A stretch of 35,135 nucleotides of DNA from NCBI GenBank assembly GCA_903915955.1, contig CAIWUU010000048.1, positions 1-35,135 on the forward strand, given 5' to 3'. A program made the position numbers and the translations under genes. Source of the stretch: an uncultured Chlorobiaceae bacterium (GTDB lineage Bacteria > Bacteroidota > Chlorobiia > Chlorobiales > Chlorobiaceae). The notes beneath the pieces were generated by a model. The model ran no database searches and was not told the origin of the DNA. It was given only the letters and a program-made list of their open reading frames with translations. This document shows positions 4,929 through 24,439 of this stretch, piece by piece (positions within the stretch are counted from its first letter, which is position 1; every line of letters starts with the position of its first letter).

Positions 4929-5264
4929 ATGAGCGACTTGCCGAACTGTCCTGAATGCAACTCGGAATATATCTACAAAGTTGGGGCCCTCCTGACCTGC
5001 CCCGAGTGCGCCTACGAATGGAGTTCGTTGGAACCTCTGTTGGAAAAGGCTCGTGTCTGGAAGGATGCGAATGGTACCACCTTGCTGGATGGAGATACCG
5101 TGACAGTAATCAAGGATCTCAAGGTCAAGGGATCGTCATCGGCGCTCAAGGGTGGTACGAAGGTGAAGAACATTCGCCTTATCGACGGTGATCATGACAT
5201 CGACTGCAAAATCGATGGTTTTGGCGCAATGCAATTGAAGTCGGAATTTGTCAGGAAAGCCTGA
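4929..5264 (+). CDS. phnA: PhnA/YjdM-family zinc-ribbon protein
   Basis: This 111-residue protein has an N-terminal zinc ribbon with Cys7-x2-Cys10 and Cys24-x2-Cys27. A small beta-barrel follows, with the family-specific stretch 'W.DanGt.[20 protein letters not shown].lK.[10 protein letters not shown].[11 protein letters not shown]'. This is the PhnA (YjdM) protein, first named from the alkylphosphonate operon of E. coli although not needed for phosphonate breakdown there. There are no phosphonate genes nearby, so the gene name should not be read as a function. The start has AAAAGG seven bases upstream. It shares a promoter region of about 180 bp with the divergent membrane protein gene. Confidence 0.9.
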
Positions 5265-5315
5265 AGCGACTTCTTGTTTCATCATGTGTTCACATTCACA
5301 GGGGCCGTCGTCCAC

Positions 5316-5909
5316 TTACCCGGGGTAATATGGTCGCACACGGAATGATGCCCCCAGAGAAAGAGCCAGTGCTTTACACGCATCGACATCAAGTGATGGT
5401 ACATGAACAACGCTTGCAATGACTTCCGGCATTTCTGCTGCGGCAAGACGGATGAAATCGCAGAGAGCCGTAAAGCCTGCGGTGCCGAAAGGGCTGTGGC
5501 AGAGGCGCAGATATGTTTCGGCATCAGGTGCGTTCAGACTGATTGAGAGGCAATCCACTATGCCTGCCAGTTCTGGTATGATGTTCCGGCCATGCACCAG
5601 ATTTGCCTGTCCATCAGTATTGATTCGAACAGGAACGTTGTAATGCTGCTTGATTGCTTCAGCCACCTGCCTGACGATCTCAAGCCGTATCAATGATTCA
5701 CCATAACCGCAGAACACAATCTCATCGAACTCATTGAATGCTGCAATTGCAGCCATGATCTCATGGAATGATGGCTCGACATCGAGAAAGAGGTCGTTTT
5801 CATCAAATGTTCGGGTGTTGAATTTAATGCAGAATGAGCAGTCGTTTGAACAGCGATTTGTAATATTCAAGTATAGTGTGTTTCTGATTTTGTAGGCAAT
5901 GGTGGGCAT
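5316..5909 (-). CDS. TatD-associated radical SAM protein
   Basis: This 197-residue protein is short for the superfamily. The radical-SAM cluster motif is Cys20-x3-Cys24-x2-Cys27 inside 'NITNRCSNDCSFC'. A glycine-rich SAM-binding segment 'EIVFCGYGESLIRLE' (the GGE equivalent) follows, then the partial-barrel strands 'RINTDGQANLVHGRNI' and 'LSISLNAPDAETY'. This matches the small radical SAM family usually found beside tatD nucleases. No tatD lies in this window. The gene converges on phnA with about 50 bases between stops. Its reaction is unknown. Confidence 0.8.
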   Translation of the reverse strand: MPTIAYKIRNTLYLNITNRCSNDCSFCIKFNTRTFDENDLFLDVEPSFHEIMAAIAAFNEFDEIVFCGYGESLIRLEIVRQVAEAIKQHYNVPVRINTDGQANLVHGRNIIPELAGIVDCLSISLNAPDAETYLRLCHSPFGTAGFTALCDFIRLAAAEMPEVIASVVHVPSLDVDACKALALSLGASFRVRPYYPG

Positions 5910-6263
5910 TATTCATGAAAAATGGTTTCGAAGATGAATGACATTATCGTCAAAAGAGCTTATAAATCCTATACAAACGGCATATAGTACATCTTGTCCG
6001 GGCAAGCCTATTTACTCTCAATGTCAAACCGGTGCTACCGATATTGTCACTCTCGAGAACGCTGATCTCGGGGTGTAGCCTATTGTTACAATTTTTTTTT
6101 AAGATTTGAGCTTCAAAATCTCCTGTTATACCCAACTTTTTTATATTGAGGTGCGTCTGAAACACAGCTCTCCGGTGAGTGGATTTGTTATTTCCTCTTT
6201 GCTCTAACTTGTTATTATAAAGCATTCTATATTTTTCTCTTCTCAAATCTGATCTCTGAAATC
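5910..6263. other. 354-base intergenic region upstream of nrdJ
   Basis: This region separates the divergent radical SAM gene and nrdJ, so it should hold both promoters. It is AT-rich near nrdJ and contains a long T-run at 6091-6100 and TATAAAG near 6218. No Shine-Dalgarno-like sequence precedes the nrdJ ATG. I looked for a cobalamin riboswitch and for paired NrdR boxes, and found neither convincingly. A half-site-like CATATAGTAC at about 5979-5988 is the only NrdR-like hint. Confidence 0.5.
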
Positions 6264-11935: not shown

Positions 11936-12306
11936 GGTTTCGTGCGTTTAGGAGTCAATAAAACATTTGAGCTAATATACATAATCAGAAGAAAAGAGTT
12001 TTGATGGAAAAATCGCAGGATGGAGCTGACCGATTTTAACAGAAGCGGCAAAAGGTTTCTTGTGATGGCCAGGAAGGGGATGAGCTGAATTTTATTTCAT
12101 ATATAACCATATAGCTTTGTTATTATATGGTTATATTATTTAACTACCAATATCCATACTTTTTCCCCCATATACCGAAGCGATTACCGACTTCTTGCGA
12201 CTTGATTTCAGAAGGCCGATAGTGATTTTTTGTACGTCTATGGTGCAGGGTTTATTTGTCGAAGTACAGTCTGTTATTTTAATCATCTTTAATTCATCAA
12301 TAAAAT
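11936..12306. other. 371-base divergent intergenic region ahead of the sulfur genes
   Basis: This region lies between the leftward DUF4293-pdxA-ftsE operon and the rightward fadL-like gene, so it must carry both promoters. It contains a long perfect inverted repeat at 12101-12136 (listed separately). The 170 bases from there to the fadL start show no other clear structure. The base composition drops to AT-rich compared with the flanking genes. Confidence 0.6.
12101..12136. promoter_or_regulatory. Perfect 13-bp inverted repeat, candidate operator
   Basis: ATATAACCATATA (12101-12113) is matched exactly by TATATGGTTATAT (12124-12136) across a 10-base spacer. Its core half-sites AACCATAT and ATATGGTT resemble the arms of a palindrome ahead of dsrC, and one arm recurs almost exactly ahead of the soeBC-like gene. 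No T-run or GC stem is present, so a protein-binding site is more likely than a terminator. The regulator is unknown. Confidence 0.5.
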
Positions 12307-13731
12307 ATGATCAGTAAATCAGCAGTTGGAGCGGCTCTTCTGGTCGGGCTCTTTGGACCATTGACGGTATTTGCTACTAACGGCATGAACCTCGAAGGGT
12401 ATGGCGCTAAATCCCATGCTCTTGGTGGGGCCAGCATGGCCTTTGACACTGGCAACTCCGCCGCGATGAATAACACGGCAACGCTTGGCCTGATGAAAAA
12501 TGGCCAGCAAGAGCTTGGCTTCGGTATCAGGGGGCTGCATCCAGATATTAGCGTCAGTTATGGGCCTTTATCGGATACATCGGATGGAACTGCATACTAC
12601 ATGCCATCACTTTCTTATATGAGAAAAGATGGTAACATTGCCTGGGGCGCAGCCTTCCTTGCCCAGGGAGGAATGGGTACTGAGTATGGTAATAATTCGC
12701 CTTTGTTTCAGGGAGGGTATTCTATGCTGAATACTCTGGTTTCAATGAGTGGAAAGGAGATACGTTCGGAAGTGGGCGGTGGAAGGCTGATGTTTCCGCT
12801 TGCCTGGAACATTACACCAAATACGACGATTGGGGCATCTCTTGATCTGATTTGGACGAGCATGGATCTGCAGATGGATATGGACGGAGCGCATTTTCTG
12901 GGGATGATTGGAGGGCAGGGAGGGTCTGTCAGCGGGTCGATGTATACTGCTCTTGGTGGTATGATGGTTCCAGGTGGGGCTGTTACCGATATCAATTATC
13001 TTCGTTTTGATTTTTCCAATAACAGCTCATTTATTGGCGAAGCCATAGGGTATGGCACAGGAGCGAAGATCGGCATGACCCATCGATTCAGCGAAGTACT
13101 CACCGTTGGAGGAAGTTACCATACCAGAAGCTTGATCTCCGATCTTGAAACCTCAAAAGCGACACTCTCTTTTGCGGGTACTGGCAGTGCATTTTCAGGC
13201 TCAAATCCGGTTTCCGTGACTGGAACGATCAAGGTTATGGATTTTGAATGGCCCTCTATTCTTGCTGCCGGATTTGCACTTTACCCTGATGAACGATGGA
13301 TGATTGTTGGAGATGTCAAGTATATCGATTGGTCAACAGCCATGAAAAGATTTTCAATGTCGTTTGTTGCAGACAACTCTGCCGCGAATGGAGGTTTTGT
13401 CGGTCAGATACTTGATGTGGAGATGAAACAGGAGTGGAAAGATCAGGCGGTTTTCTCGATAGGCGCTCAATACAAGGCAACCGATCGTCTCGCGCTGCGT
13501 GCCGGAGCGAGCTTTTCGACAAATCCAGTGCCCGACAGCTATCTCAACCCCCTGTTTCCGGCAATTACCAAAAACCATTATACTGGTGGCTTTGGTTATC
13601 GTATGACGGATACATCGACCGTTGCCGCTGCGCTTTCCCTGGTGCCGAAGGTGTCAGCGACCAACATTGACGGGATGGCTATCAGTCACAGCCAGATCAA
13701 CTGGTCACTTAACTATACGCATTCACTGTAG
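12307..13731 (+). CDS. FadL/OmpP1/TodX-family outer-membrane channel
   Basis: This 474-residue beta-barrel protein has a cleavable signal peptide (about residues 1-23, ending VFA). It is followed by 'TNGMNLEGYGAKSHALGGASMAFDTGNSAAMNNTATLG', the classic FadL-family N-terminal hatch with its G-x-G-x(4)-A-M-G-GA pattern and NPA-like asparagines. The C-terminus 'HSQINWSLNYTHSL' is amphipathic strand sequence ending the barrel. FadL proteins take hydrophobic molecules through the outer membrane by lateral diffusion. It sits directly before the sulfur-oxidation genes in the same orientation, about 250 bases from the next gene. A role in sulfur or polysulfane uptake is only a hypothesis, and fatty acid or hydrocarbon uptake remains possible. 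Confidence 0.85.
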   Translation: MISKSAVGAALLVGLFGPLTVFATNGMNLEGYGAKSHALGGASMAFDTGNSAAMNNTATLGLMKNGQQELGFGIRGLHPDISVSYGPLSDTSDGTAYYMPSLSYMRKDGNIAWGAAFLAQGGMGTEYGNNSPLFQGGYSMLNTLVSMSGKEIRSEVGGGRLMFPLAWNITPNTTIGASLDLIWTSMDLQMDMDGAHFLGMIGGQGGSVSGSMYTALGGMMVPGGAVTDINYLRFDFSNNSSFIGEAIGYGTGAKIGMTHRFSEVLTVGGSYHTRSLISDLETSKATLSFAGTGSAFSGSNPVSVTGTIKVMDFEWPSILAAGFALYPDERWMIVGDVKYIDWSTAMKRFSMSFVADNSAANGGFVGQILDVEMKQEWKDQAVFSIGAQYKATDRLALRAGASFSTNPVPDSYLNPLFPAITKNHYTGGFGYRMTDTSTVAAALSLVPKVSATNIDGMAISHSQINWSLNYTHSL

Positions 13732-13832: not shown

Positions 13833-13844
13833 ATATGGTGATAT
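13833..13844. promoter_or_regulatory. Copy of the fadL-upstream motif ahead of soeBC
   Basis: ATATGGTGATAT matches 11 of 12 bases of ATATGGTTATAT in the right arm at 12125-12136. It lies 134 bases before the soeBC start, in a gap without genes. Only one arm is clear here. It may be a binding site for the same regulator, but one short AT-rich match can occur by chance. Confidence 0.3.
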
Positions 13845-13977: not shown

Positions 13978-15531
13978 ATGAATTACGGTTTCGTTATTGA
14001 TGCCCGAAAGTGTATCGGATGTCATGCGTGTACGGTCGCATGTAAATCTGAAAACCAGGTACCCCTCGGAGTAAACCGCACCTGGGTGAAATATGTTGAA
14101 AAGGGAACATTTCCCGACAGCAGAAGATATTTTACTGTTCTTCGGTGCAACCATTGCGCGGAACCGCCCTGTGTCGATATCTGCCCTGTTGAGGCCCTGC
14201 ATCGTCGCGATGATGGCATCGTTGATTTCGATCAGCGTCGCTGTATCGGTTGCAAAGCCTGTTCTCAGGCCTGTCCTTATGGCGCGCTCTATATGGATCC
14301 AGAGACTCATACCTCTGCGAAATGTAATTATTGTGCGCATCGAAAAGAGGTTGGGCTTAATCCAGCCTGTGTTGCGATTTGTCCACAGCAGGCAATTATT
14401 GCTGGTGATCTTGATGATCCAAGGAGTGCAATAGCTATGCTTGTGGCAAAAGAGCAGACTATGGTGCGAAAGCCGGAAAAAGGCACTTCCCCCAAGCTTT
14501 ATTATATCAATGGAGATGGAGCTTCGCTTGATCCTCTGGAGGTTTCGGAGGTCAACGGATATCTCTGGAGTGAGCAGTCACGCGGAGTTGGCCATTTTGC
14601 AGGCAAGCACTTTGTTAAACCGGCCAAAAAATTGCTTCCATCATCCGGCATTGATGGAAAACCAAAGGCCAGAAAGGTGTATGATATTCCTTCAAAGGGA
14701 GTTGTCTGGGGCTGGGAAGTTCCCGCTTATGTCTGGTCGAAGGCTGTTGCTTCTGGACTGTTTCTTCTGATGTTTGTATTGCAGACGTTGCTGATGCACA
14801 CAATGCCAGATTCCCTGCAATGGGCCGTATGGGCGACATCACTACTTTTTCTTGCTCTTACGGGAGGATTTCTTGTCAAGGATCTTGATCGTCCAGAGCG
14901 TTTCTCCTCGGTGATGCTTCGTCCGCAATTCGGTTCATGGCTTACGAAGGGCGGGTTGACGATTGGTGGATTTGGTGCTTTTCTTGCCTTGTGGGGAGTT
15001 GCAAAATATTTTCAGTTGCCACTTCTCGAAACCATATCGATGTGGTGCGGAGGGATTTTTGCCCTGTTGACTGCGATCTATACCGCCTTTCTTTTTGGTT
15101 CAGCAAAGGGGAGAGACTTCTGGCAAAGCCCGATGCTTCTGTTGCACATGTTCCTGAACTCGCTGCTTGCGGGAGGTTCTGCCATGCTTGTTCTTGACCT
15201 TTTGACAGGAAGCGCTTCCGGTCTTTCTGAAACGCTCCGCCCTGCTCTTGCCGGTGGTTTTGTTCTCCACATTCTTGTCATGCTTTCAGAGCTTTTAGGC
15301 AAGCATCCCTCGAAGTCTGCAGAGCGTGCTGCGGAGGTGATTTTGCATGGCACACTGAAACAACAGTTCTGGATTGGCAGTTTCATGCTGGGCAATGTGC
15401 TTCCTTTTTTATTGTGTTTTGTTTTTGCGAATCCTGTCATCCTTGCAGTCGCCGCCATTTTTGGACTTTGTGGTGTCTTCTACACAGAAAAAGTCTGGAT
15501 TCATGCGCCGCAAACAGTCCCGTTAAGTTAA
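13978..15531 (+). CDS. Fused SoeB-SoeC-like subunit (PSRLC3 iron-sulfur plus NrfD-like membrane protein)
   Basis: This 517-residue protein joins two subunits that are separate in most relatives. Residues 1-180 form a PsrB/NrfC-type ferredoxin with 16 cysteines for four [4Fe-4S] clusters: 12/15/18/22, 57/60/65/69, 89/92/95/99 and 116/119/131/135. After a linker (about 180-235), residues 240-510 form an NrfD/PsrC-type membrane domain with about eight helices. No Tat or Sec signal precedes the ferredoxin, so the clusters face the cytoplasm. It would carry electrons from the molybdoenzyme encoded next to quinone. In green sulfur bacteria this complex is called PSRLC3. It is related to SoeBC of Allochromatium vinosum, which oxidises sulfite. 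Confidence 0.88.
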   Translation: MNYGFVIDARKCIGCHACTVACKSENQVPLGVNRTWVKYVEKGTFPDSRRYFTVLRCNHCAEPPCVDICPVEALHRRDDGIVDFDQRRCIGCKACSQACPYGALYMDPETHTSAKCNYCAHRKEVGLNPACVAICPQQAIIAGDLDDPRSAIAMLVAKEQTMVRKPEKGTSPKLYYINGDGASLDPLEVSEVNGYLWSEQSRGVGHFAGKHFVKPAKKLLPSSGIDGKPKARKVYDIPSKGVVWGWEVPAYVWSKAVASGLFLLMFVLQTLLMHTMPDSLQWAVWATSLLFLALTGGFLVKDLDRPERFSSVMLRPQFGSWLTKGGLTIGGFGAFLALWGVAKYFQLPLLETISMWCGGIFALLTAIYTAFLFGSAKGRDFWQSPMLLLHMFLNSLLAGGSAMLVLDLLTGSASGLSETLRPALAGGFVLHILVMLSELLGKHPSKSAERAAEVILHGTLKQQFWIGSFMLGNVLPFLLCFVFANPVILAVAAIFGLCGVFYTEKVWIHAPQTVPLS

Positions 15532-15549: not shown

Positions 15550-18411
15550 ATGAGTTATACCCATAAACCAACAGTTATTGAAACTATAGCAGAGAAGCTG
15601 CATCTTATCCCTGATCTCCATACTGAAGGTGAAGGCCCAGCAGCGAAAAGTGCCACCACTGATGGCAGTCAGGTTAACTGTCCACCTCCCGACCAGTGGG
15701 ACAACTGGGTGGAGTACGATTCCAAAAGCTGGCCTGAACGCAAGTCAAAAGAGTATATGATTATTCCGACAGCCTGTTTCAATTGTGAGGCAGGTTGTGG
15801 ACTTCTGGCTTATGTTGACAAGGAGACCATGACGATGCGCAAGCTGGTCGGCAATCCCTATCATCCGGCAAGTCGAGGCAGAAACTGTGCAAAAGGTCCT
15901 GCGACGCTCAACCAGATTGAGGATACCGACAGAGTGCTCTATCCAATGAAACGCTCGGGAAAAAGAGGTGGTGGCAAATGGGATAGAGTGAGCTGGGACA
16001 GTGTGCTTGATGACATTGCAGGAAGAATGCGCAAGGCTATTCAGGAGGGTCGCAACAATGAAATCTCTTACCATGTCGGACGTCCCGGTCATGAAGGGTT
16101 CATGGAGTGGGTACTCAGGGCATGGAACGTGGACGGTCATAACAGCCATACCAATGTTTGTTCATCGGGAGCTCGTTTTGGTTACGCTATATGGGAAGGA
16201 TTAGATCGCCCATCTCCCGATTATACCAATGCTAAATTTATGCTTCTCGTCAGTGCCCACCTTGAGTCGGGGCACTATTTCAATCCTCATGCCCAGCGCA
16301 TTGTAGAGGCAAGGATGAAAGGCGCGAAACTTGCCGTACTTGATCCTCGTCTTTCAAACACGGCCAGCATGTCGGACTACTGGATGCCGAGTTTTCCAGG
16401 CAGTGAGCCAGCTATCTTGCTTGCCATGGCAAAGGTTATTATTGATGAGGGGCTCTACAACCGCGACTATCTTGAAAACTGGGTGAACTGGAAGGAGTAT
16501 CTGCAGCAGGATTACCCGGGAACTCCAGTGACTTTTGAAAATTTTATTGAGGCGCTGAAAAAAGAGTACAGCATCTATACTCCGGAGTATGCAGAAAAAG
16601 AGAGTGGAGTCAAGGCTGCAATGATTGTTGAGGTGGCCCGCAAAATAGGTGAGGCTGGTACGCAGTTTGCCACGCATGTGTGGCGCAGCGCAAGCAGTGG
16701 TAACCTTGGAGGCTGGGCAGTCTCTCGCACCCTCCATTTCCTGAATGTTTTGACCGGCAGCGTTGGTACGCCCGGCGGAACTTCGCCAAGCGCATGGAAC
16801 AAGTTCCACCCGGATGTTCATGCCAAACCAAAACCTCAGACCTTCTGGAACACACTCCAACTGCCGGATGAGTATCCTCTTGCCCACTTTGAGCTAAGCT
16901 TTTTGCTACCCCATTTTCTTAAAGAGGGCCGTGGTAAACTTGATGTCTATTTTACCAGGGTGTTCAATCCTGTATGGACCTATCCTGATGGTTTTTCATG
17001 GATAGAGGCCTTGGAAGATGAGTCGAAAATAGGTCTCCATGCAGCGCTTACTCCAACCTGGAGCGAAACTGCCTATTTTGCCGATTACGTACTCCCTATG
17101 GGGCATTCCGCTGAACGGCATGATCTGCTCAGTTATGAAACTCATGCAGGCAAGTGGGTGGCTTTCCGTCAACCGGTTCTTCGAGTTGCCCATGCGAAGA
17201 TGGGACATCCTGTACAATATACCTGGGAAGCAAATGTTGGTGAGGTGTGGGAAGAGGATGAGTTCTGGATTGAGCTGACCTGGAGGATTGATCCGGATGG
17301 AAGCCTTGGTATAAAACAGTATTGCATGTCACCTTACCGTCCTGGTGAAAAGATAACTATAGAAGAGTATTACCGTTATATCTTTGAGCGTGTTCCAGGT
17401 CTTCCTGAAACGGCAGCTAAAGAAGGGCTCACACCGCTGGAGTATATGCAGAAGTATGGAGCTTTCGAGGTTGAAAGTAATGTCTACAAGGTCAATGAAA
17501 GAGCTCTGTCGCAGGCAGATATGCAGGGTTCAGCAGTGCAGCAGGGTACAGGTCTGATAACCAAAAATGGTAAATCAGTCGGTGTTCAGGTTGATGGTGT
17601 AAATTGCACAGGTTTCCCGACTCCATCCCGCAAGCAGGAGTTTTACTCCAGGACAATGGTCGACTGGAAGTGGCCTGAATACCGTCTTCCAACCTACATT
17701 AAAAGCCATGTGCATCAGGAGATCATGAACCGGAGCAAGGGTGAATTTGCGCTTGTCCCGACATTTCGTCTTCCTGTCTTGATTCACTCTCGTTCCGGCA
17801 ATGCCAAATGGCTTGCTGAGATTGCTCACCGAAATCCGGTCTGGATGAATGCCTCGGATGCAAAGAGTCTTGGTTTTGAAGATGGTGATCTCATTCGAGT
17901 GAATACAGATATCGGCTTTTTCATCAACCGTGTATGGGTTACAGAAGGGATTCGACCCGGCGTGGTTGCCTGTTCGCACCACATCGGTCGCTGGCGTCGG
18001 GAACAGGATCCTGCTGCCAACCGTTGGTCAACCAACCGGGTGGAGATCAAGCGTGAAGGTGGCGGAAAATGGAAAATGAGAGTTGAAGAGAGCATTGAGC
18101 CCTATGAGAGCAGCGATCCTGATTCAACGCGAATCTTCTGGTCTGATGGTGGCGTGCACCAGAACATCACCTTCCCGGTTCATCCTGATCCGATCAGCGG
18201 AATGCACTGCTGGCATCAGAAGGTGCGTATCGAAAAAGCGCATGAAGAGGATCGTTATGGCGATGTGTTTGTCGATACAGAGCGTTCACACCAGATTTAC
18301 AAGGAGTGGCTTGCCATGACAAGGCCAGCGCCGGGCCCTGATGGTCTTCGCCGTCCTCTCTGGATGGGTCGCCCATTCAGGCCTGATGAAAAGACTTTTT
18401 ACATCTCTTAA
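15550..18411 (+). CDS. soeA: SoeA-like molybdopterin oxidoreductase (PSRLC3 catalytic subunit), probable sulfite dehydrogenase
   Basis: This 953-residue catalytic subunit belongs to the polysulfide reductase branch of the DMSO reductase superfamily. Cys76-x2-Cys79-x3-Cys83 and Cys113 bind the [4Fe-4S] cluster. Cys204 in 'TNVCSSGARFG' sits where the family has its Mo ligand. The C-terminal molybdopterin dinucleotide-binding domain is about residues 740-930. There is no twin-arginine signal, unlike periplasmic PsrA or PhsA, which agrees with the cytoplasmic SoeA of A. vinosum. The ATG has GGAGAAAC upstream and starts 18 bases after the fused soeBC gene, so they form one complex. Sulfite oxidation is inferred from family and context; polysulfide or thiosulfate activity is not excluded. 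Confidence 0.85.
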   Translation: MSYTHKPTVIETIAEKLHLIPDLHTEGEGPAAKSATTDGSQVNCPPPDQWDNWVEYDSKSWPERKSKEYMIIPTACFNCEAGCGLLAYVDKETMTMRKLVGNPYHPASRGRNCAKGPATLNQIEDTDRVLYPMKRSGKRGGGKWDRVSWDSVLDDIAGRMRKAIQEGRNNEISYHVGRPGHEGFMEWVLRAWNVDGHNSHTNVCSSGARFGYAIWEGLDRPSPDYTNAKFMLLVSAHLESGHYFNPHAQRIVEARMKGAKLAVLDPRLSNTASMSDYWMPSFPGSEPAILLAMAKVIIDEGLYNRDYLENWVNWKEYLQQDYPGTPVTFENFIEALKKEYSIYTPEYAEKESGVKAAMIVEVARKIGEAGTQFATHVWRSASSGNLGGWAVSRTLHFLNVLTGSVGTPGGTSPSAWNKFHPDVHAKPKPQTFWNTLQLPDEYPLAHFELSFLLPHFLKEGRGKLDVYFTRVFNPVWTYPDGFSWIEALEDESKIGLHAALTPTWSETAYFADYVLPMGHSAERHDLLSYETHAGKWVAFRQPVLRVAHAKMGHPVQYTWEANVGEVWEEDEFWIELTWRIDPDGSLGIKQYCMSPYRPGEKITIEEYYRYIFERVPGLPETAAKEGLTPLEYMQKYGAFEVESNVYKVNERALSQADMQGSAVQQGTGLITKNGKSVGVQVDGVNCTGFPTPSRKQEFYSRTMVDWKWPEYRLPTYIKSHVHQEIMNRSKGEFALVPTFRLPVLIHSRSGNAKWLAEIAHRNPVWMNASDAKSLGFEDGDLIRVNTDIGFFINRVWVTEGIRPGVVACSHHIGRWRREQDPAANRWSTNRVEIKREGGGKWKMRVEESIEPYESSDPDSTRIFWSDGGVHQNITFPVHPDPISGMHCWHQKVRIEKAHEEDRYGDVFVDTERSHQIYKEWLAMTRPAPGPDGLRRPLWMGRPFRPDEKTFYIS

Positions 18412-18424
18412 ACTTGATACAGTA

Positions 18425-19381
18425 ATGAATCAAAGAGGTTATAGAGCATTCAGCTCCATTTTTCTTCTGACTCTGTTCTCTGCGTTGCTGCTGTTGTCAC
18501 CGGCAGCGGCATTTGCTGTACAGGCTCAACCACCTGTACAGACGGAATGGTGGGTTTGGGAGATAGCACTCTTCGTCTTTTCATTTTTTCTTGGGATTAT
18601 CGCCGTTATTGCAGGGGTTGGCGGTGGGGTGCTGTTTGTTCCGATCGTCAGCAGTTTTTTTCCCTTCCACATCGACTTTGTCAGGGGAGCGGGATTGCTG
18701 GTAGCACTTTCCGGAGCCCTTTCTGCGGGCTCTCCCTTGCTGAAAAAGGGACTTGCCAATCTCAAGCTGGCTCTTTCCATGGCACTAATTGCCTCTATCA
18801 GCTCAATAGCAGGAGCTATGGTCGGGCTGGCCATGCCGGAAAATGTTGTGCAGTTATCACTTGGTGCTACAATTCTCGGTATTTCCGTGATTATGCTGCT
18901 TTCAAAAAACTCTGCATATCCTGAAATATCTGAGCCAGATACGCTTTCAAAAATATTACATATCTATGGTATCTATTACGATGAACAGCTTAAAAAAGAT
19001 GTCAGTTGGCAGATCCATCGCACCCCTGTTGGAATTCTTCTGTTTATTGTGATTGGATTCATGGCTGGTATGTTCGGGCTTGGCGCTGGATGGGCAAATG
19101 TACCAGTATTCAACCTTGTTCTTGGGGCGCCTCTGAGAGTTTCCGTGGCCACAAGCATTTTTGTACTCTCTATCAATGATACTGCAGCCGCATGGGTCTA
19201 TCTGCACAAGGGAGCGGTACTCCCTCTTATTGCAGTTCCATCAATTGCCGGGATGATGATAGGGACAAAAATTGGTGCCAGACTGCTGACAAAGGTTCAT
19301 ACTCGTGTTGTCAGAAAGCTTGTTATCACACTCCTGGCTGCTGCTGGATTAAGAGCTCTCTTAAAAGGATTCGGAATCTGA
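18425..19381 (+). CDS. TauE/SafE-family permease, probable sulfite or organosulfur-anion exporter
   Basis: I take the ATG at 18425, which gives 318 residues and starts after the soeA stop. The frame stays open back to 18341 over the soeA end, and no start has a clear ribosome site. After an N-terminal hydrophobic segment there are about eight helices. The first conserved motif is 'FFLGIIAVIAGVGGGVLFVPIVSSFF', the glycine-rich TauE signature, repeated in the second half as 'GFMAGMFGLGAGWANVPVFNLVLG'. TauE/SafE proteins move sulfite, sulfoacetate or related anions. Next to a sulfite-producing and sulfite-oxidising gene set, sulfite export is the natural guess. The DUF1634 gene that follows often accompanies this family. 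Confidence 0.85.
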   Translation: MNQRGYRAFSSIFLLTLFSALLLLSPAAAFAVQAQPPVQTEWWVWEIALFVFSFFLGIIAVIAGVGGGVLFVPIVSSFFPFHIDFVRGAGLLVALSGALSAGSPLLKKGLANLKLALSMALIASISSIAGAMVGLAMPENVVQLSLGATILGISVIMLLSKNSAYPEISEPDTLSKILHIYGIYYDEQLKKDVSWQIHRTPVGILLFIVIGFMAGMFGLGAGWANVPVFNLVLGAPLRVSVATSIFVLSINDTAAAWVYLHKGAVLPLIAVPSIAGMMIGTKIGARLLTKVHTRVVRKLVITLLAAAGLRALLKGFGI

Positions 19382-19396
19382 CTTTAAACATATACG

Positions 19397-19810
19397 ATGA
19401 AACAAGAACTTCATGCAAACAGGGTTCAGTTGAGCTATGCCACTGTTCTCTTCTGGACTTCGACTTTAGGAATTATTTTTATTATTGCAGGCTATCTGAC
19501 CTATGTCCTTCAGTTGCTTCCCTCGGCGGTTTCTCCCGCTGAGGTTGCTTTGCATTGGCATCTTCGGGCAGCAGAGTTGCACAAAGTGGTTGCTGTTCCT
19601 TCAGGATGGGATTGGCTTACTCAGTTGGGTCGGGGTGATGTCATCAGTTACGCTTCAATTGTCTATCTTTCATCGGTGACCATGTTCTGTCTTGCTGTTA
19701 TTATTCCTGCTTTTGTTAAGGAAAAAGATTTCATTTATACCGTTTTAACATTGCTTCAGGTTACAGTTCTTCTTTTTGTCGCAGCAGGGGCTTTTTCAGG
19801 AGGACATTGA
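19397..19810 (+). CDS. DUF1634 membrane protein, partner of TauE
   Basis: This 137-residue protein has three clear membrane helices (about residues 14-40, 84-106 and 111-132). Between the first two is the extracytoplasmic segment 'AEVALHWHLRAAELHKVVAVPSGWDWLTQLGRGDVISYASI', which matches DUF1634. DUF1634 proteins are very often encoded right after TauE/SafE permeases, as here with a 15-base gap. They are thought to be part of the transporter, but no function has been assigned that I know of. No ribosome site is obvious before the ATG. Confidence 0.8.
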   Translation: MKQELHANRVQLSYATVLFWTSTLGIIFIIAGYLTYVLQLLPSAVSPAEVALHWHLRAAELHKVVAVPSGWDWLTQLGRGDVISYASIVYLSSVTMFCLAVIIPAFVKEKDFIYTVLTLLQVTVLLFVAAGAFSGGH

Positions 19811-19887: not shown

Positions 19888-20397
19888 ATGGCTGATACAA
19901 AAAAACTTGCAATTATTGCATCCCAGGGGTCACTTGACTGGGCATACCCTCCATTTATCCTTGCTTCAACAGCCGCAGCCATGGATATGGAAGCGGTCAT
20001 TTTCTTTACTTTTTACGGCTTGCCATTGCTTAAAAAGGAGATTGAGGCAAAAGTCTCTCCTCACAGTAATCCGGCAATGCCCATGAAAATGCCGTTTGGC
20101 AGCAAGGAGTTTCAGTCGATTAACTGGCCGATTCCAAACATCATATCAGGGAATGTCCCTGGTTTCGACAATATGGCGACCATGCTGATGAAGGAGACTT
20201 TCAAAAAGAAAGGAGTTGCTACAATTGAACAGCTTCGGGGAATGTGTCAGGAGTTCGGTGTTCGCTTTATTGCATGCCAGATGACCATGGAGGTTTTCGG
20301 CTTTGAAAAAGAGGAGTTCATTGACGGAGTTGAATACGGCGGTGCGGCAACTTTTCTTGAATACGCGGCTGATGCCAATATTTCGCTTTTTATCTGA
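19888..20397 (+). CDS. dsrE2: DsrE2-type sulfurtransferase (DsrE/F superfamily)
   Basis: This 169-residue protein shows the DsrE2/DsrE-like sequence 'KLAIIASQGSLDWAYPPFILASTAAAMDMEAVIFFTFYGLPLL'. The hydrophobic segment at residues 19-50 may associate with the membrane. Cys120 and Cys130 ('GMCQEFGVRFIACQMTMEVFG') are the only cysteines and lie in the region that carries persulfide in relatives. In A. vinosum a rhodanese, TusA and DsrE2 encoded together pass sulfur into the Dsr pathway. The same three genes occur here in the order dsrE2-rhodanese-tusA, just before dsrN. Which cysteine is loaded first is not known from the sequence. Confidence 0.88.
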   Translation: MADTKKLAIIASQGSLDWAYPPFILASTAAAMDMEAVIFFTFYGLPLLKKEIEAKVSPHSNPAMPMKMPFGSKEFQSINWPIPNIISGNVPGFDNMATMLMKETFKKKGVATIEQLRGMCQEFGVRFIACQMTMEVFGFEKEEFIDGVEYGGAATFLEYAADANISLFI

Positions 20398-20415: not shown

Positions 20416-20883
20416 ATGGTGCGTTATATTGAACTTATTCGGCACTGTTTATCAGATATTCAAGAAATTATGCCTTGGGATCTCGTTGATCGTATGAAAG
20501 CGAACCCCGATCTGCTGGTTCTTGATGTTCGAGAACCTTATGAATTTGATGCCATGCATATTGCCGGTTCAATGAATATTCCAAGGGGTATTCTTGAATC
20601 TGCCTGTGAATGGGATTTCGAGGATACTGTACCTGAATTAGTGAAAGCCAGAAAGCGTGAAGTTGTTGTTGTTTGTCATTCCGGTCACCGCAGTATTCTT
20701 GCCGTCCACTCCATGCAGTTGCTTGGTTATGAAGATGTTGTCTCTTTACGGACAGGGTTGAGGGGCTGGAATGATTATGAAGAGCCCCTTGTGAGCAGCG
20801 CAGAAACAATTGTTGTTTCTGCTGAGACGGATGATTATTTTGTTGCCAGGTTGCGGCCCGAACAAATGGCACCGAGGGGCTGA
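20416..20883 (+). CDS. Rhodanese-like sulfurtransferase
   Basis: This is a single-domain rhodanese of 155 residues. The fold is seen from 'LLVLDVREPYEFDAMHIAGSMNIPRG' (residues 33-58) to the active-site loop Cys87-H-S-G-H-R-S and 'GLRGWNDYEEPL' (about 118-129). Cys87 would carry the persulfide. It lies between dsrE2 and tusA and is the likely partner that feeds sulfur to TusA. The start is uncertain: the ATG at 20416 and an internal ATG at 20470 both lack a good ribosome site. The tail after residue 130 is poorly conserved and acidic. Confidence 0.9.
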   Translation: MVRYIELIRHCLSDIQEIMPWDLVDRMKANPDLLVLDVREPYEFDAMHIAGSMNIPRGILESACEWDFEDTVPELVKARKREVVVVCHSGHRSILAVHSMQLLGYEDVVSLRTGLRGWNDYEEPLVSSAETIVVSAETDDYFVARLRPEQMAPRG

Positions 20884-20930: not shown

Positions 20931-21167
20931 ATGAGCGAGGTTGTTTGCAACATGGAGCTGAATTGCGAAGGTTTAAATTGCCCTTTACCAATTCTGAAGA
21001 CAAAAAAAGCTATTGATTCACTGAACAGTGGCGAGATACTGAAAATGATTGCTACCGATCCTGGTTCTGTCAATGATATGGCCTCATGGGCAAAACGTAC
21101 TGGACACGAATTGGTATCGCACACTGAAGCAGCGAACGTCCATACTTTCTTGATCCGGAAGAAGTAA
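20931..21167 (+). CDS. tusA: Sulfur carrier protein TusA
   Basis: This 78-residue protein has the TusA/SirA signature 'LNCEGLNCPLPILKTKKAI', with the persulfide-carrying Cys17 in the CPxP motif. The second half 'GEILKMIATDPGSVNDMASWAKRTGHELV' also matches the fold. TusA hands sulfur between rhodanese, DsrE2 and DsrEFH/DsrC in sulfur oxidisers. The start is well set by AAGGAG eight bases upstream, and dsrN begins seven bases after the stop. Its position makes it the physical and probably functional link between the sulfur-transfer genes and dsr. Confidence 0.95.
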   Translation: MSEVVCNMELNCEGLNCPLPILKTKKAIDSLNSGEILKMIATDPGSVNDMASWAKRTGHELVSHTEAANVHTFLIRKK

Positions 21168-21174
21168 GAGGGTA

Positions 21175-22584
21175 ATGCCTCCTCAATGCAATCTCCCCCG
21201 GTTGATGATATCCGCAGCCTGGAAGAGTTCAGGCAAGACAATGGTCAGCCTGGGTATATTGCGGTATCTTGCTCATCAGGGAGTTGCTGCCAGCAGTTTC
21301 AAGAAAGGTCCGGATTATATTGACCCTTCATGGCACAAGCTGGCAAGTGGAAGCGAGTGCTATAATCTTGATCCTTACCTGATGGGGAGTGAGGCGTGTC
21401 TCGATTCATTTCATAGAAATATCAGCGAGGATGGTACCACTATCGCTCTTGTCGAAGGTAATCATGGCCTTCATGATGGTCTCTCCCTTGATGGCTCTGA
21501 CAGCAGCGCTGGCCTCGCGCTGATGCTTGATATGCCGGTGTTGCTGGTGGTTGACAGCAGAAAATCAAACCGGGGGTTAGCAGCGCTTGTTATGGGCATG
21601 CAGGCGATGTCGCCCAGGGTGAATATTTGTGGTGTAATATTAAACCAGATAAAAAGTTTACGTCAGGGGGAAAAGCAGAAACAGTCGATTGAGCATTATT
21701 GCAAGCTGCCCGTGTTGGGGATGATTCCTTCTGACAGTGCGCTGATTATTCCGGAAAGGCATCTTGGACTTACAGCAGTTGGAGAGATGGCTGATGCCAG
21801 CAAGTTTATTGAGGGTGCGGCAGAAGCTGTTGACCGTTATTGTGATATGAAGGCAGTGCTTGAGCTCTTTTATAAGGCACCTCCAATGGATATACGGAAG
21901 AGTGAGAGCTCAGTGAAGAGAATGTCGGTAAAAGCAAGGATAGGGGTCTTTATGGATGCGGCCTTCTGTTTTTACTATCCTGACAATTTGAGGGCATTAA
22001 GGGAAAACGGCGCTGAGCTTGTGTTCATTAATTCATTTACCTCTCATGCGTTGCCTGATGTCGATGCTCTCTATCTTGGCGGAGGGTTCCCTGAATCATT
22101 CTTTGAAATGTTAAGCTCAAACAATGGGCTTTTGAAAGATGTTCGTGAACATGCAGAGGCGGGTATGCCGGTTTATGCAGAGTGTGGAGGCTTTATTTAT
22201 CTTTGTCGTAATGCAACCTGGGGAGGCAGAACGTATCCTCTTGCCGGTATACTTCCATTTGAAATCGGGTTTGGGCATATTCCTGCCGGGCATGGATATC
22301 TTGATTTGAAGAGCAGCAGAGATTCGCCCTGGTTCAGAAAGGATGAACGGGTCAAGGCGCATGAGTTTCACTATTCCCGAGTGCTTGCGCCTGCAGGGGA
22401 GACTCTTTTTCAGTTTGAGGTTATCCGGGGGGCAGGAATAACGGGAAAACGTGATGGCGCGCTTCATCAGAATCTTTTTGCATCGTTTGCACATCTGCAT
22501 GCAACAGGTAACCCCGAGTGGGCTGAGAGGTTTGTTCAGCTTGCGTCCGAATTTAAAACGAATGGATGCAGCTATCAGATATAG
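21175..22584 (+). CDS. dsrN: DsrN, siroheme amidase (cobyrinic acid a,c-diamide synthase family)
   Basis: This 469-residue CobB/CbiA-type amidotransferase has an N-terminal ATP-binding domain with the P-loop-like 'SAAWKSSGKTMVSLGIL' (residues 13-29). The C-terminal class I glutaminase domain has the nucleophile Cys337 in 'VYAECGGFIYL' and His396/His399 in 'HEFHYS'. In dsr clusters this enzyme converts siroheme to the siroheme amide used by DsrAB. AGAGGG before the ATG supports the start. A cobalamin-synthesis role is the alternative, but the position before dsrC favours DsrN. About 210 bases separate it from dsrC. Confidence 0.93.
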   Translation: MPPQCNLPRLMISAAWKSSGKTMVSLGILRYLAHQGVAASSFKKGPDYIDPSWHKLASGSECYNLDPYLMGSEACLDSFHRNISEDGTTIALVEGNHGLHDGLSLDGSDSSAGLALMLDMPVLLVVDSRKSNRGLAALVMGMQAMSPRVNICGVILNQIKSLRQGEKQKQSIEHYCKLPVLGMIPSDSALIIPERHLGLTAVGEMADASKFIEGAAEAVDRYCDMKAVLELFYKAPPMDIRKSESSVKRMSVKARIGVFMDAAFCFYYPDNLRALRENGAELVFINSFTSHALPDVDALYLGGGFPESFFEMLSSNNGLLKDVREHAEAGMPVYAECGGFIYLCRNATWGGRTYPLAGILPFEIGFGHIPAGHGYLDLKSSRDSPWFRKDERVKAHEFHYSRVLAPAGETLFQFEVIRGAGITGKRDGALHQNLFASFAHLHATGNPEWAERFVQLASEFKTNGCSYQI

Positions 22585-22627: not shown

Positions 22628-22652
22628 TTAAAAACAACTTCTTCGTTTTTAA
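22628..22652 (+). repeat. Inverted repeat after dsrN
   Basis: TTAAAAAC (22628-22635) and GTTTTTAA (22645-22652) are exact reverse complements around a 9-base loop. The last two bases are shared with the next palindrome at 22651. It could act as a weak AT-rich terminator for dsrN or as part of a regulatory region for dsrC. Confidence 0.35.
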
Positions 22653-22670
22653 CTATATTGACATATAGTT
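22651..22670. promoter_or_regulatory. Palindrome upstream of dsrC, candidate operator
   Basis: AACTATATTGACATATAGTT has perfect 8-bp arms around TGAC and lies about 125 bases before dsrC. Its half-sites resemble AACCATAT/ATATGGTT upstream of the fadL-like gene. Six T residues follow, so an AT-rich terminator is an alternative reading. Confidence 0.45.
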
Positions 22671-22795: not shown

Positions 22796-23131
22796 ATGGC
22801 AATTGAAGTTAATGGTGGCCGTTATGAAACGGATGAGAATGGATATCTTGTCAATCTTGATGACTGGTCGGAGGATGTAGCCCTTGTTTTAGCTCAGGGT
22901 GAGGAAATTGAGATGACAGAGTCCCATTGGGATCTTGTTAAATTCCTAAGAAATTATTACGAGGAGTACCAGATAGCCCCTGCCGTCAAGGTGCTGACCA
23001 AGGCAGTTGCTACAGAGAAAGATATGGATAAAAAAGCTGCATCAGAGTTTCTTTATGGGCTTTTTCCGAAAGGTCCAGGATTGCAGGCCTGTAAAATTGC
23101 CGGGCTGCCGAAACCTACGGGTTGCGTTTAA
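22796..23131 (+). CDS. dsrC: Sulfur carrier protein DsrC
   Basis: This 111-residue protein is full length for DsrC. The C-terminal swinging arm 'GLQACKIAGLPKPTGCV' carries both redox cysteines, Cys99 and the penultimate Cys110. They are ten residues apart, as needed for trisulfide formation, so it is a true DsrC and not a TusE/RspA-like relative with fewer cysteines. DsrC receives sulfur from DsrEFH, presents it to DsrAB and passes electrons through DsrK. The ATG has AAAGGAG upstream. The upstream gap with a palindrome suggests its own promoter, which fits the high amounts of DsrC needed. Confidence 0.98.
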   Translation: MAIEVNGGRYETDENGYLVNLDDWSEDVALVLAQGEEIEMTESHWDLVKFLRNYYEEYQIAPAVKVLTKAVATEKDMDKKAASEFLYGLFPKGPGLQACKIAGLPKPTGCV

Positions 23132-23185
23132 GAGACGGAAAGAGGTTTGCTGATCCCAATTTACTGTGAATCAAAGGAGGTAATA

Positions 23186-24439
23186 ATGGAAGGCGCTCAA
23201 AAGGCTGCTTCAGATGAAGTGATACGCGGGAAGGACGGAGGTGTGGATGAAACCGGGACTTTTTTAAATCCTACCCCAATGCTTGATGAACTGGAAAAGG
23301 GCCCATGGCCAAGTTTTATTTCCGGGTTCAAGGAGCTTGCTGAAAGAACAGAAAAACCCATGTTGCGTGGGGTTATGGATCAGCTTGAGTACTCTTACAA
23401 TACCAAAATGGGGTACTGGAAGGGTGGTCTTGTGACTGTGGATGGATATGGTGCTGGAGTTATCACACGCTATTCCATGATCAAGGAGAAGTTTCCTGAA
23501 GCTGCTGAATTTCACACCATGCGAATTCAGCCTGCACCGGGTCTCCACTATAATACCGATATGCTTCGGGGGCTTTGTGATACATGGGAGAAGTTTGGCA
23601 GTGGGATCATTACCCTGCATGGACAGACTGGTGACATTATGCTGCAGGGTATTGAGCAGGGTAAGGTTCAGGCCTGTTTTGATGAACTCAACCAGGCTGG
23701 GTGGGATCTCGGAGGAGCTGGTGCCGGTATGCGTACTGCGGTCTCGTGTATTGGGCCTGGTCGTTGCGAGAATGCCTGCTACGACAATCTCAAGTGTCAT
23801 CTCACGCTTCTCAAACATTTTATAGGACAGGTTCATCGTCCGGAGTGGAACTATAAGATCAAGTTCAAGTTCTCCGCATGTCCAAATGATTGTACCAATG
23901 CAATCATGCGCTCAGATCTCGCCGTTATCGGAACCTGGAAAGATGCAATACAGGTTGAAAGGGAAGAGGTTCAGGCTTGGGTTAAGGAGAACGGGGTAGA
24001 CACCCTGGTAAACCAGGTTATCAATCTTTGCCCGACCCGTGCGATATCGCTGAAAGAGGGGGAGATGGTCATTGACAGCAGGGATTGTGTTCGTTGTATG
24101 CACTGCCTGAATGTTATGCCCAAGGCTCTCTCGCCAGGCAAGGATCGGGGAATATCATTGTTGATGGGCGGCAAAAATACGCTGAAGGTTGGCGTTAACA
24201 TGGGTTCGCTCATTGTGCCGTTTATGAAGATGGATACCGACGAAGATATTGAAGAGTTTACAGAACTTGTGGAAGGGATTATTGATTGGTGGGATGACAA
24301 TGGGCTTGATCATGAAAGGATCGGTGAAACCATTGAGCGCGTTGGTTTGAAGCTTTTCCTTGAGGGAGTTGGCCTCGAAGCTAACATTAATATGGTGACA
24401 AGGCCTCGCGACAATCCATACTTCAAGGCGAAGTATTGA
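23186..24439 (+). CDS. dsrA: Dissimilatory sulfite reductase alpha subunit (reverse type)
   Basis: I start at the ATG at 23186, where AAAGGAGG lies six bases upstream; the frame is open further back but only to a TTG. The 417-residue protein has the siroheme/[4Fe-4S] cysteines Cys188-x5-Cys194 (in CIGPGRC) and Cys232-x3-Cys236 (in CPNDC). A ferredoxin insert 'DCVRCMHCLNVMPKAL' is also present. With DsrB it forms the cytoplasmic alpha2beta2 enzyme, which in green sulfur bacteria oxidises DsrC-bound sulfur to sulfite. The start is 54 bases after dsrC, and dsrB follows after a 92-base gap. Confidence 0.98.
   Translation: MEGAQKAASDEVIRGKDGGVDETGTFLNPTPMLDELEKGPWPSFISGFKELAERTEKPMLRGVMDQLEYSYNTKMGYWKGGLVTVDGYGAGVITRYSMIKEKFPEAAEFHTMRIQPAPGLHYNTDMLRGLCDTWEKFGSGIITLHGQTGDIMLQGIEQGKVQACFDELNQAGWDLGGAGAGMRTAVSCIGPGRCENACYDNLKCHLTLLKHFIGQVHRPEWNYKIKFKFSACPNDCTNAIMRSDLAVIGTWKDAIQVEREEVQAWVKENGVDTLVNQVINLCPTRAISLKEGEMVIDSRDCVRCMHCLNVMPKALSPGKDRGISLLMGGKNTLKVGVNMGSLIVPFMKMDTDEDIEEFTELVEGIIDWWDDNGLDHERIGETIERVGLKLFLEGVGLEANINMVTRPRDNPYFKAKY

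Follow-up and report, generated by a model that had tools for sequence, protein, structure and literature searches.

A TodX/TbuX-type channel gene beside the soe and dsr genes of a green sulfur bacterium: a candidate for the uptake of zero-valent sulfur

The channel gene and its genomic localization

Analysis of a 35,135-nt stretch of DNA from an uncultured Chlorobiaceae bacterium (GenBank contig CAIWUU010000048.1; this whole stretch is referred to as the window) revealed an open reading frame with an ATG start and a 474-aa product, which encodes an intact barrel of the OmpP1/FadL/TodX type. The genes and sequence elements are listed in Table 1. An earlier note, made from the sequence alone, had placed soeBC-soeA-tauE-dsrE2-rhd-tusA-dsr downstream of this gene on the same strand. 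This order was borne out, with two genes added that the note had omitted, one encoding a small membrane protein (19397) and one a CobB/CfbB-like amidase (21175). A homologue of the small membrane protein (27% identical) follows tauE in the betaproteobacterial locus L195. At its 5' end, the longest tauE frame shares 71 bp with the end of soeA (18341-18411), and the true start of tauE is probably located further downstream.

Table 1. Genes and sequence elements of the channel locus (window positions unless another locus is named)
Feature	Position	Strand	Basis or remark
Left arm of perfect inverted repeat, putative operator copy 1, ATATAACCATATA	12101..12113	+	
Right arm, putative operator copy 2, TATATGGTTATAT	12124..12136	-	
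TodX/TbuX-type outer-membrane channel (FadL superfamily), 474 aa	12307..13731	+	PF03349, profile, model
Putative operator copy 3 before soeBC, ATATGGTGATAT (ATATCACCATAT)	13833..13844	-	
soeBC-like fused Fe-S/NrfD subunit (PSRLC3)	13978..15531	+	
soeA-like molybdopterin oxidoreductase (PSRLC3)	15550..18411	+	
TauE/SafE-type sulfite exporter	18341..19381	+	
Small membrane protein, DUF1634-like	19397..19810	+	weak match
DsrE2 sulfur carrier	19888..20397	+	NF047629 above cut-off
Rhodanese	20416..20883	+	
TusA sulfur carrier	20931..21167	+	
CobB/CfbB-like amidase (position of dsrN), between tusA and dsrC	21175..22584	+	
Related palindrome before dsrC, AACTATAT-TGAC-ATATAGTT	22651..22670	.	read by eye
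DsrC	22796..23131	+	
DsrA	23147..24439	+	TIGR02064, 512 bits
Deletion in strain G019, natural knock-out of the channel	L207:8300-10100 vs window 12020-13380		

The N terminus of the channel protein is a signal peptide, and the mature protein begins with TNGMNLEGYG, the start of the hatch. The protein matched PF03349 Toluene_X (OMPP1/FadL/TodX) with 94.4 bits, compared to a cut-off of 29.7, which confirms the FadL/OmpP1 assignment of the earlier note and can be made more precise. A profile built from 18 relatives (alignment A1) was used to search the Protein Data Bank and returned TbuX (E value of 1e-88), TodX (1e-84), and CymD (1e-73), whereas Escherichia coli FadL was found at 1e-5 to 1e-6. 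In an AlphaFold2 model of the channel (m69ef45e88eba; pLDDT 85.6), short helices at residues 34 to 62 form the predicted N-terminal hatch and are followed by strands up to the C terminus, as in a beta-barrel. Superposition with TodX gave a Z score of 42 and an rmsd of 2.2 over approximately 410 aligned residues, compared to a Z score of 36 for FadL, and TodX, TbuX, and CymD structures filled ranks 1 to 6 in both structure comparisons. The channel is therefore a member of the TodX/TbuX/CymD branch, nearer to it than to FadL in both sequence and predicted fold. The classic fatty acid channel FadL was rejected as the nearest kin on the basis of the profile E values.

The monoaromatic hydrocarbon channels TbuX, TodX, and CymD (Protein Data Bank entries 3BRY, 3BS0, and 6Z34) resemble the window channel over the whole length, including the start of the hatch (Z scores of 41 to 43 for the fold), but their sequence identity to it is just 28 to 30%. 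The long-chain fatty acid channel FadL of E. coli (Protein Data Bank entry 1T16) belongs to the same superfamily and shares the barrel and the N-terminal hatch, but represents a different branch with 13 to 15% identity. The subgroup of the window channel carries WxSMDLQMDMDG where TbuX has WTSLNLGTLLDV, and also NPVPDxYLNPLFPAI, and it is accompanied by sulfur genes in place of those for aromatic catabolism. With the subgroup's own profile, the sulfur-linked channels mostly scored 430 to 690 bits, compared to 285 to 300 bits for TbuX and TodX.

Three further sequence details were observed. The subgroup-specific MDLQMDMDG is located at window positions 12862-12888 (residues 186 to 194). The Asn-Pro of the hatch, present as NP-A or NP-S in 17 of 17 relatives in alignment A1, is replaced by N-T-A in the window protein (residue 57; 12475-12477). 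Methionine accounts for 5 to 6% of the residues in the channel subgroup versus 1.9% in TbuX, a feature possibly tied to a soft, sulfur-like substrate.

A candidate operator motif shared with soeBC and dsrC

The inverted repeat upstream of the channel gene consists of perfect 13-nt arms that are 10 nt apart, and its hairpin was more stable than expected (z of -4.7; 0 of 200 shuffles). The recurrence of its arm before soeBC, which had been claimed before, is real: the pattern ATATGGTKATAT with at most one mismatch has three matches in 35 kb compared to 0.22 expected, and these are only the two arms and the soeBC site. The copy before soeBC is conserved in the loci L107, L112, and L128.

The pattern ATATNACYATAT was then used for a whole-genome motif search in 17 channel carriers. 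G062 (2.4 Mb, single contig) contains only three exact copies, one before the channel gene and two before dsrC, and in G011, four of five copies precede the channel gene, soeBC, and dsrC. Over the 17 genomes, 33 of 92 copies precede FadL, soeBC, or dsrC genes, compared to 0.08 expected; because the motif was partly read from the DNA upstream of FadL and soeBC, only the dsrC matches (24 exact copies, in 12 of 17 genomes) are fully independent. The total number of copies per genome did not separate strains with dsr from those without; the positions alone did. These data suggest that the channel gene, soeBC, and dsrC share a candidate operator motif and may form a sulfur oxidation regulon. As a side observation, in G001 and G009 (loci L223, L230, L236, and L238) single copies of the motif also lie before soxY and before genes for an SQR-like flavoprotein, a porin-looking secreted protein, and a molybdopterin oxidoreductase, as would be found in a wider sulfur regulon.

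The channel gene had been described as heading the sulfur genes. This fits its upstream position, but a role as the head of an operon appears unlikely. The 246-nt gap between the channel gene and soeBC contains its own operator copy, and strain G019 keeps soe-dsr intact while lacking the fadL promoter; a single operon headed by fadL is therefore unsupported. No terminator was scored 3' of the channel gene, and the RNA fold there was no better than that of shuffled sequences. The channel gene looks like a separate transcription unit.

Distribution and gene company in two phyla

The distribution among green sulfur bacteria was analyzed in 65 Chlorobium-type genomes, of which 44 contain dsrA and 21 do not. 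The channel, whole or in traces, was detected in 21 of the 44 genomes with dsrA and in none of the 21 without (Fisher P of 3e-5, uncorrected for phylogeny). Its absence from the other 23 dsr-positive genomes indicates that it is an accessory of the sulfur oxidation module and not an obligatory member. The gene or its remnant adjoins soeBC in 16 of the 21 carriers (remnants counted). In Chlorobaculum-type strains, it follows a thioredoxin-like (tlpA) gene and the PEPCK gene, with no sulfur gene adjoining, and in Chlorobium sp. N1 (L112) and C. phaeovibrioides (L121) the PEPCK side lies upstream and soeBC downstream of the channel gene.

Several copies are decayed. Frameshifted channel genes were found in G022, G031, G035, G063, and strain 24CR, although some frameshifts in draft metagenome bins may be errors, and only remnants are present in G018, G019, and G073. 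Chlorobaculum sp. 24CR (G098; L117:7807-9217) yielded no dsrA match, and its channel gene, split by a frameshift, appears as if it had decayed along with the pathway. In its soe and dsr genes, G019 hardly differs from the window strain, but a deletion of approximately 1.3 kb has taken away the fadL promoter together with the 5' three quarters of the gene. The channel gene is accessory and not required; the intact copies are nonetheless under purifying selection (dN/dS of about 0.08 to 0.12).

A scan of named genomes revealed relatives at 40 to 53% identity in Thiobacillus, Hydrogenophilales, Sulfuritalea, Chromatiales, and Hydrogenovibrio. Six of the seven genomes with such relatives had a dsrA match of at least 319 bits, four of them above the curated cut-off. 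For a broader sample, 300 genomes were picked evenly across the betaproteobacterial order to which the Hydrogenophilales genome G090 belongs. With carriers defined by at least 193 bits (most at 430 to 690, two split copies lower, and one further weak match excluded), 32 genomes carry the channel subgroup. dsrA was present in 28 of the 32 carriers and in 36 of the 268 noncarriers (64 of 300 overall; P of 1e-17), and dsrE2 was present in 30 of the 32 carriers compared to 78 of 300 overall (P of 7e-18); since the genomes are related and not independent, the Fisher values of this and the Chlorobium-type sample overstate the case. In the order of the Chromatiales genome G094 (a MAG), dsrA occurs nearly everywhere (173 of 195 genomes), and the channel is missing in at least 162 of these 173; the order is uninformative about co-occurrence and demonstrates just that the channel is dispensable. 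A quick tree placed the Chlorobi channels in one clade next to Chromatiales and Thiobacillus-type sequences. The tree allows an exchange of the channel between phyla, which it neither dates nor directs.

At 10 betaproteobacterial loci, tusA-dsrE2 lies upstream of the channel gene on the same strand and ends less than 200 bp from it (L125, L176, L177, L182, L183, L185, L192, L195, L198, and L200). SoeABC is also present in four of these (L176, L182, L192, and L195), and SoxY adjoins the channel in L183 and L185. The SoeA at these loci is approximately 21% identical to Chlorobium SoeA and has a DmsC-type membrane anchor that is not NrfD-fused, so the channel is paired with sulfite oxidation as a function, via different genes. 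The neighborhood with the sulfur oxidation module thus holds in two phyla, with 16 of 21 Chlorobium-type carriers adjoining soeBC and 10 proteobacterial loci containing tusA-dsrE2. Many beta- and gammaproteobacterial carriers have no sulfur gene within approximately 5 kb of the channel, and in about two thirds of the proteobacterial carriers no relay gene is a direct neighbor. No aromatic degradation genes were met among the channel neighbors that were checked.

Two side observations concern the betaproteobacterial loci. The TauE of L195 (10433-11413) is 63% identical to the window TauE, in contrast to the low identity of SoeA, and a transfer of single genes between the phyla is possible. In 11 loci (L170, L171, L172, L176, L182, L186, L187 [5255-6211], L188, L189, L192, and L125), a gene for a secreted protein of approximately 295 aa directly follows the channel gene, often between two tandem channel genes. 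This protein has no Pfam or NCBIfam match and no homologue in the window; it is possibly a periplasmic partner of the channel.

The comparison of gene neighborhoods and dsr content had been set beforehand as a test of the sulfur link, and its outcome was mostly in favor of the link. No intact copy was seen in strains without dsrA, and in the one dsrA-negative strain with the gene, 24CR, it is frameshifted; on the other side, the Chlorobaculum-type orthologue stands away from sulfur genes, the channel is missing in most purple sulfur bacteria with dsr and in more than half of the Chlorobium-type strains with dsr, and several copies have decayed.

Candidate function of the channel

Known substrates of TodX-branch channels are small apolar molecules. 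Membership in this branch makes S8 or polysulfanes a better fit than they would be for a fatty acid channel, although this last step is an inference. Uptake of zero-valent sulfur is the mechanism that we consider best, with a probability of roughly 0.55. S8, or apolar polysulfanes shed from the external globule, would be the substrate and would pass the barrel passively into the periplasm, where sulfur would be activated. The activated sulfur would cross the inner membrane to the rhodanese/TusA/DsrE2 relay and proceed from there via DsrEFH-DsrC to rDsrAB and finally to Soe. The channel and soe, and in many relatives dsr, would be switched on by a regulator recognizing ATATNACYATAT-type sites. 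From these data we infer that the channel resides in the outer membrane in vivo, that its substrate is sulfur, that transport is directed inward, and that such a regulator exists. The Chlorobaculum-type location away from sulfur genes and the broken copies speak against sulfur uptake. Since the channel is missing in 23 of 44 and at least 162 of 173 dsr-positive genomes, it can be neither the general nor the only route.

The regulatory and genomic company of the channel, dsr and soe, consumes sulfur, and import therefore fits better than export. Green sulfur bacteria do deposit sulfur outside the cell, a passive barrel could work in both directions, and a motif copy precedes the SQR-like flavoprotein gene of G009, so that periplasmic zero-valent sulfur from sulfide oxidation might instead leave through the channel to form external globules. 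Sulfide oxidation to sulfur is independent of dsr, yet the channel is absent from every dsrA-negative Chlorobium-type genome, and dsr and soe act on stored sulfur; we regard such an exit as quite improbable. For Chlorobaculum tepidum, outer-membrane vesicles have been proposed as the exit route of sulfur (PMC12285230).

The import of a hydrophobic organic compound (an aromatic, a fatty acid, or an organosulfur compound), with the adjacency to sulfur genes reflecting lifestyle, is unlikely but deserves consideration, as the nearest characterized relatives carry toluene and cymene, most proteobacterial carriers have no relay gene directly beside the channel, and the channel follows PEPCK in some strains. 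It is opposed by the same-strand tusA-dsrE2 at 10 loci, SoeABC at four, the motif common to dsrC and soeBC, the higher own-profile scores of the sulfur-linked subgroup, and the lack of aromatic degradation genes among the neighbors checked. Cells must touch the globule in order to use it (PMC12285230; PMC11269200), and the family-less secreted protein hints at a surface or periplasmic partner; a barrel that serves globule contact, as an adhesin or by anchoring other surface proteins, and not sulfur transport is nevertheless very unlikely, given the TodX-type hatch and barrel architecture retained in the model.

Other candidates for sulfur uptake differ from the window channel. OprD-type porins, which have been suggested to take up S0 in Sulfurovum (PMC10045233), belong to a different barrel family, and SoxT/YeeE are sulfur importers of the inner membrane (PMC11582611), whereas the window channel is of an outer-membrane type. 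The rhd-tusA-dsrE2 relay and the soe genes in the window have their counterpart in betaproteobacterial tusA-dsrE2 and SoeABC beside the same channel type. In the literature searched, neither an outer-membrane channel described as belonging to this gene set nor an earlier report joining FadL or TodX with sulfur oxidation was found.

The link to sulfur oxidation made in the earlier note gained support from the co-occurrence with dsr in two phyla, the adjacency to tusA-dsrE2 and SoeABC, and the motif common to dsrC and soeBC, and the tie of the channel subgroup to sulfur oxidation is strong. A broader proposal, to which we give slightly less than even odds, is that a separate methionine-rich TodX branch has evolved as a carrier of elemental sulfur or polysulfanes over the outer membrane, has passed between Chlorobiota and Proteobacteria along with tusA-dsrE2-soe, and is coregulated with dsr; it would be the first outer-membrane sulfur channel of a recognizable family. 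No membrane protein for the passage of sulfur has been experimentally confirmed in acidophilic or neutrophilic sulfur oxidizers (PMC10045233). The channel is a good testable candidate for the step by which insoluble sulfur gets across the outer membrane of sulfur oxidizers: with a named barrel family that has a regulatory and genomic tie to dsr, occurs in some strains, and is naturally lost in close relatives, the question can be reduced to a knockout, a transport assay, and a comparison of strains.
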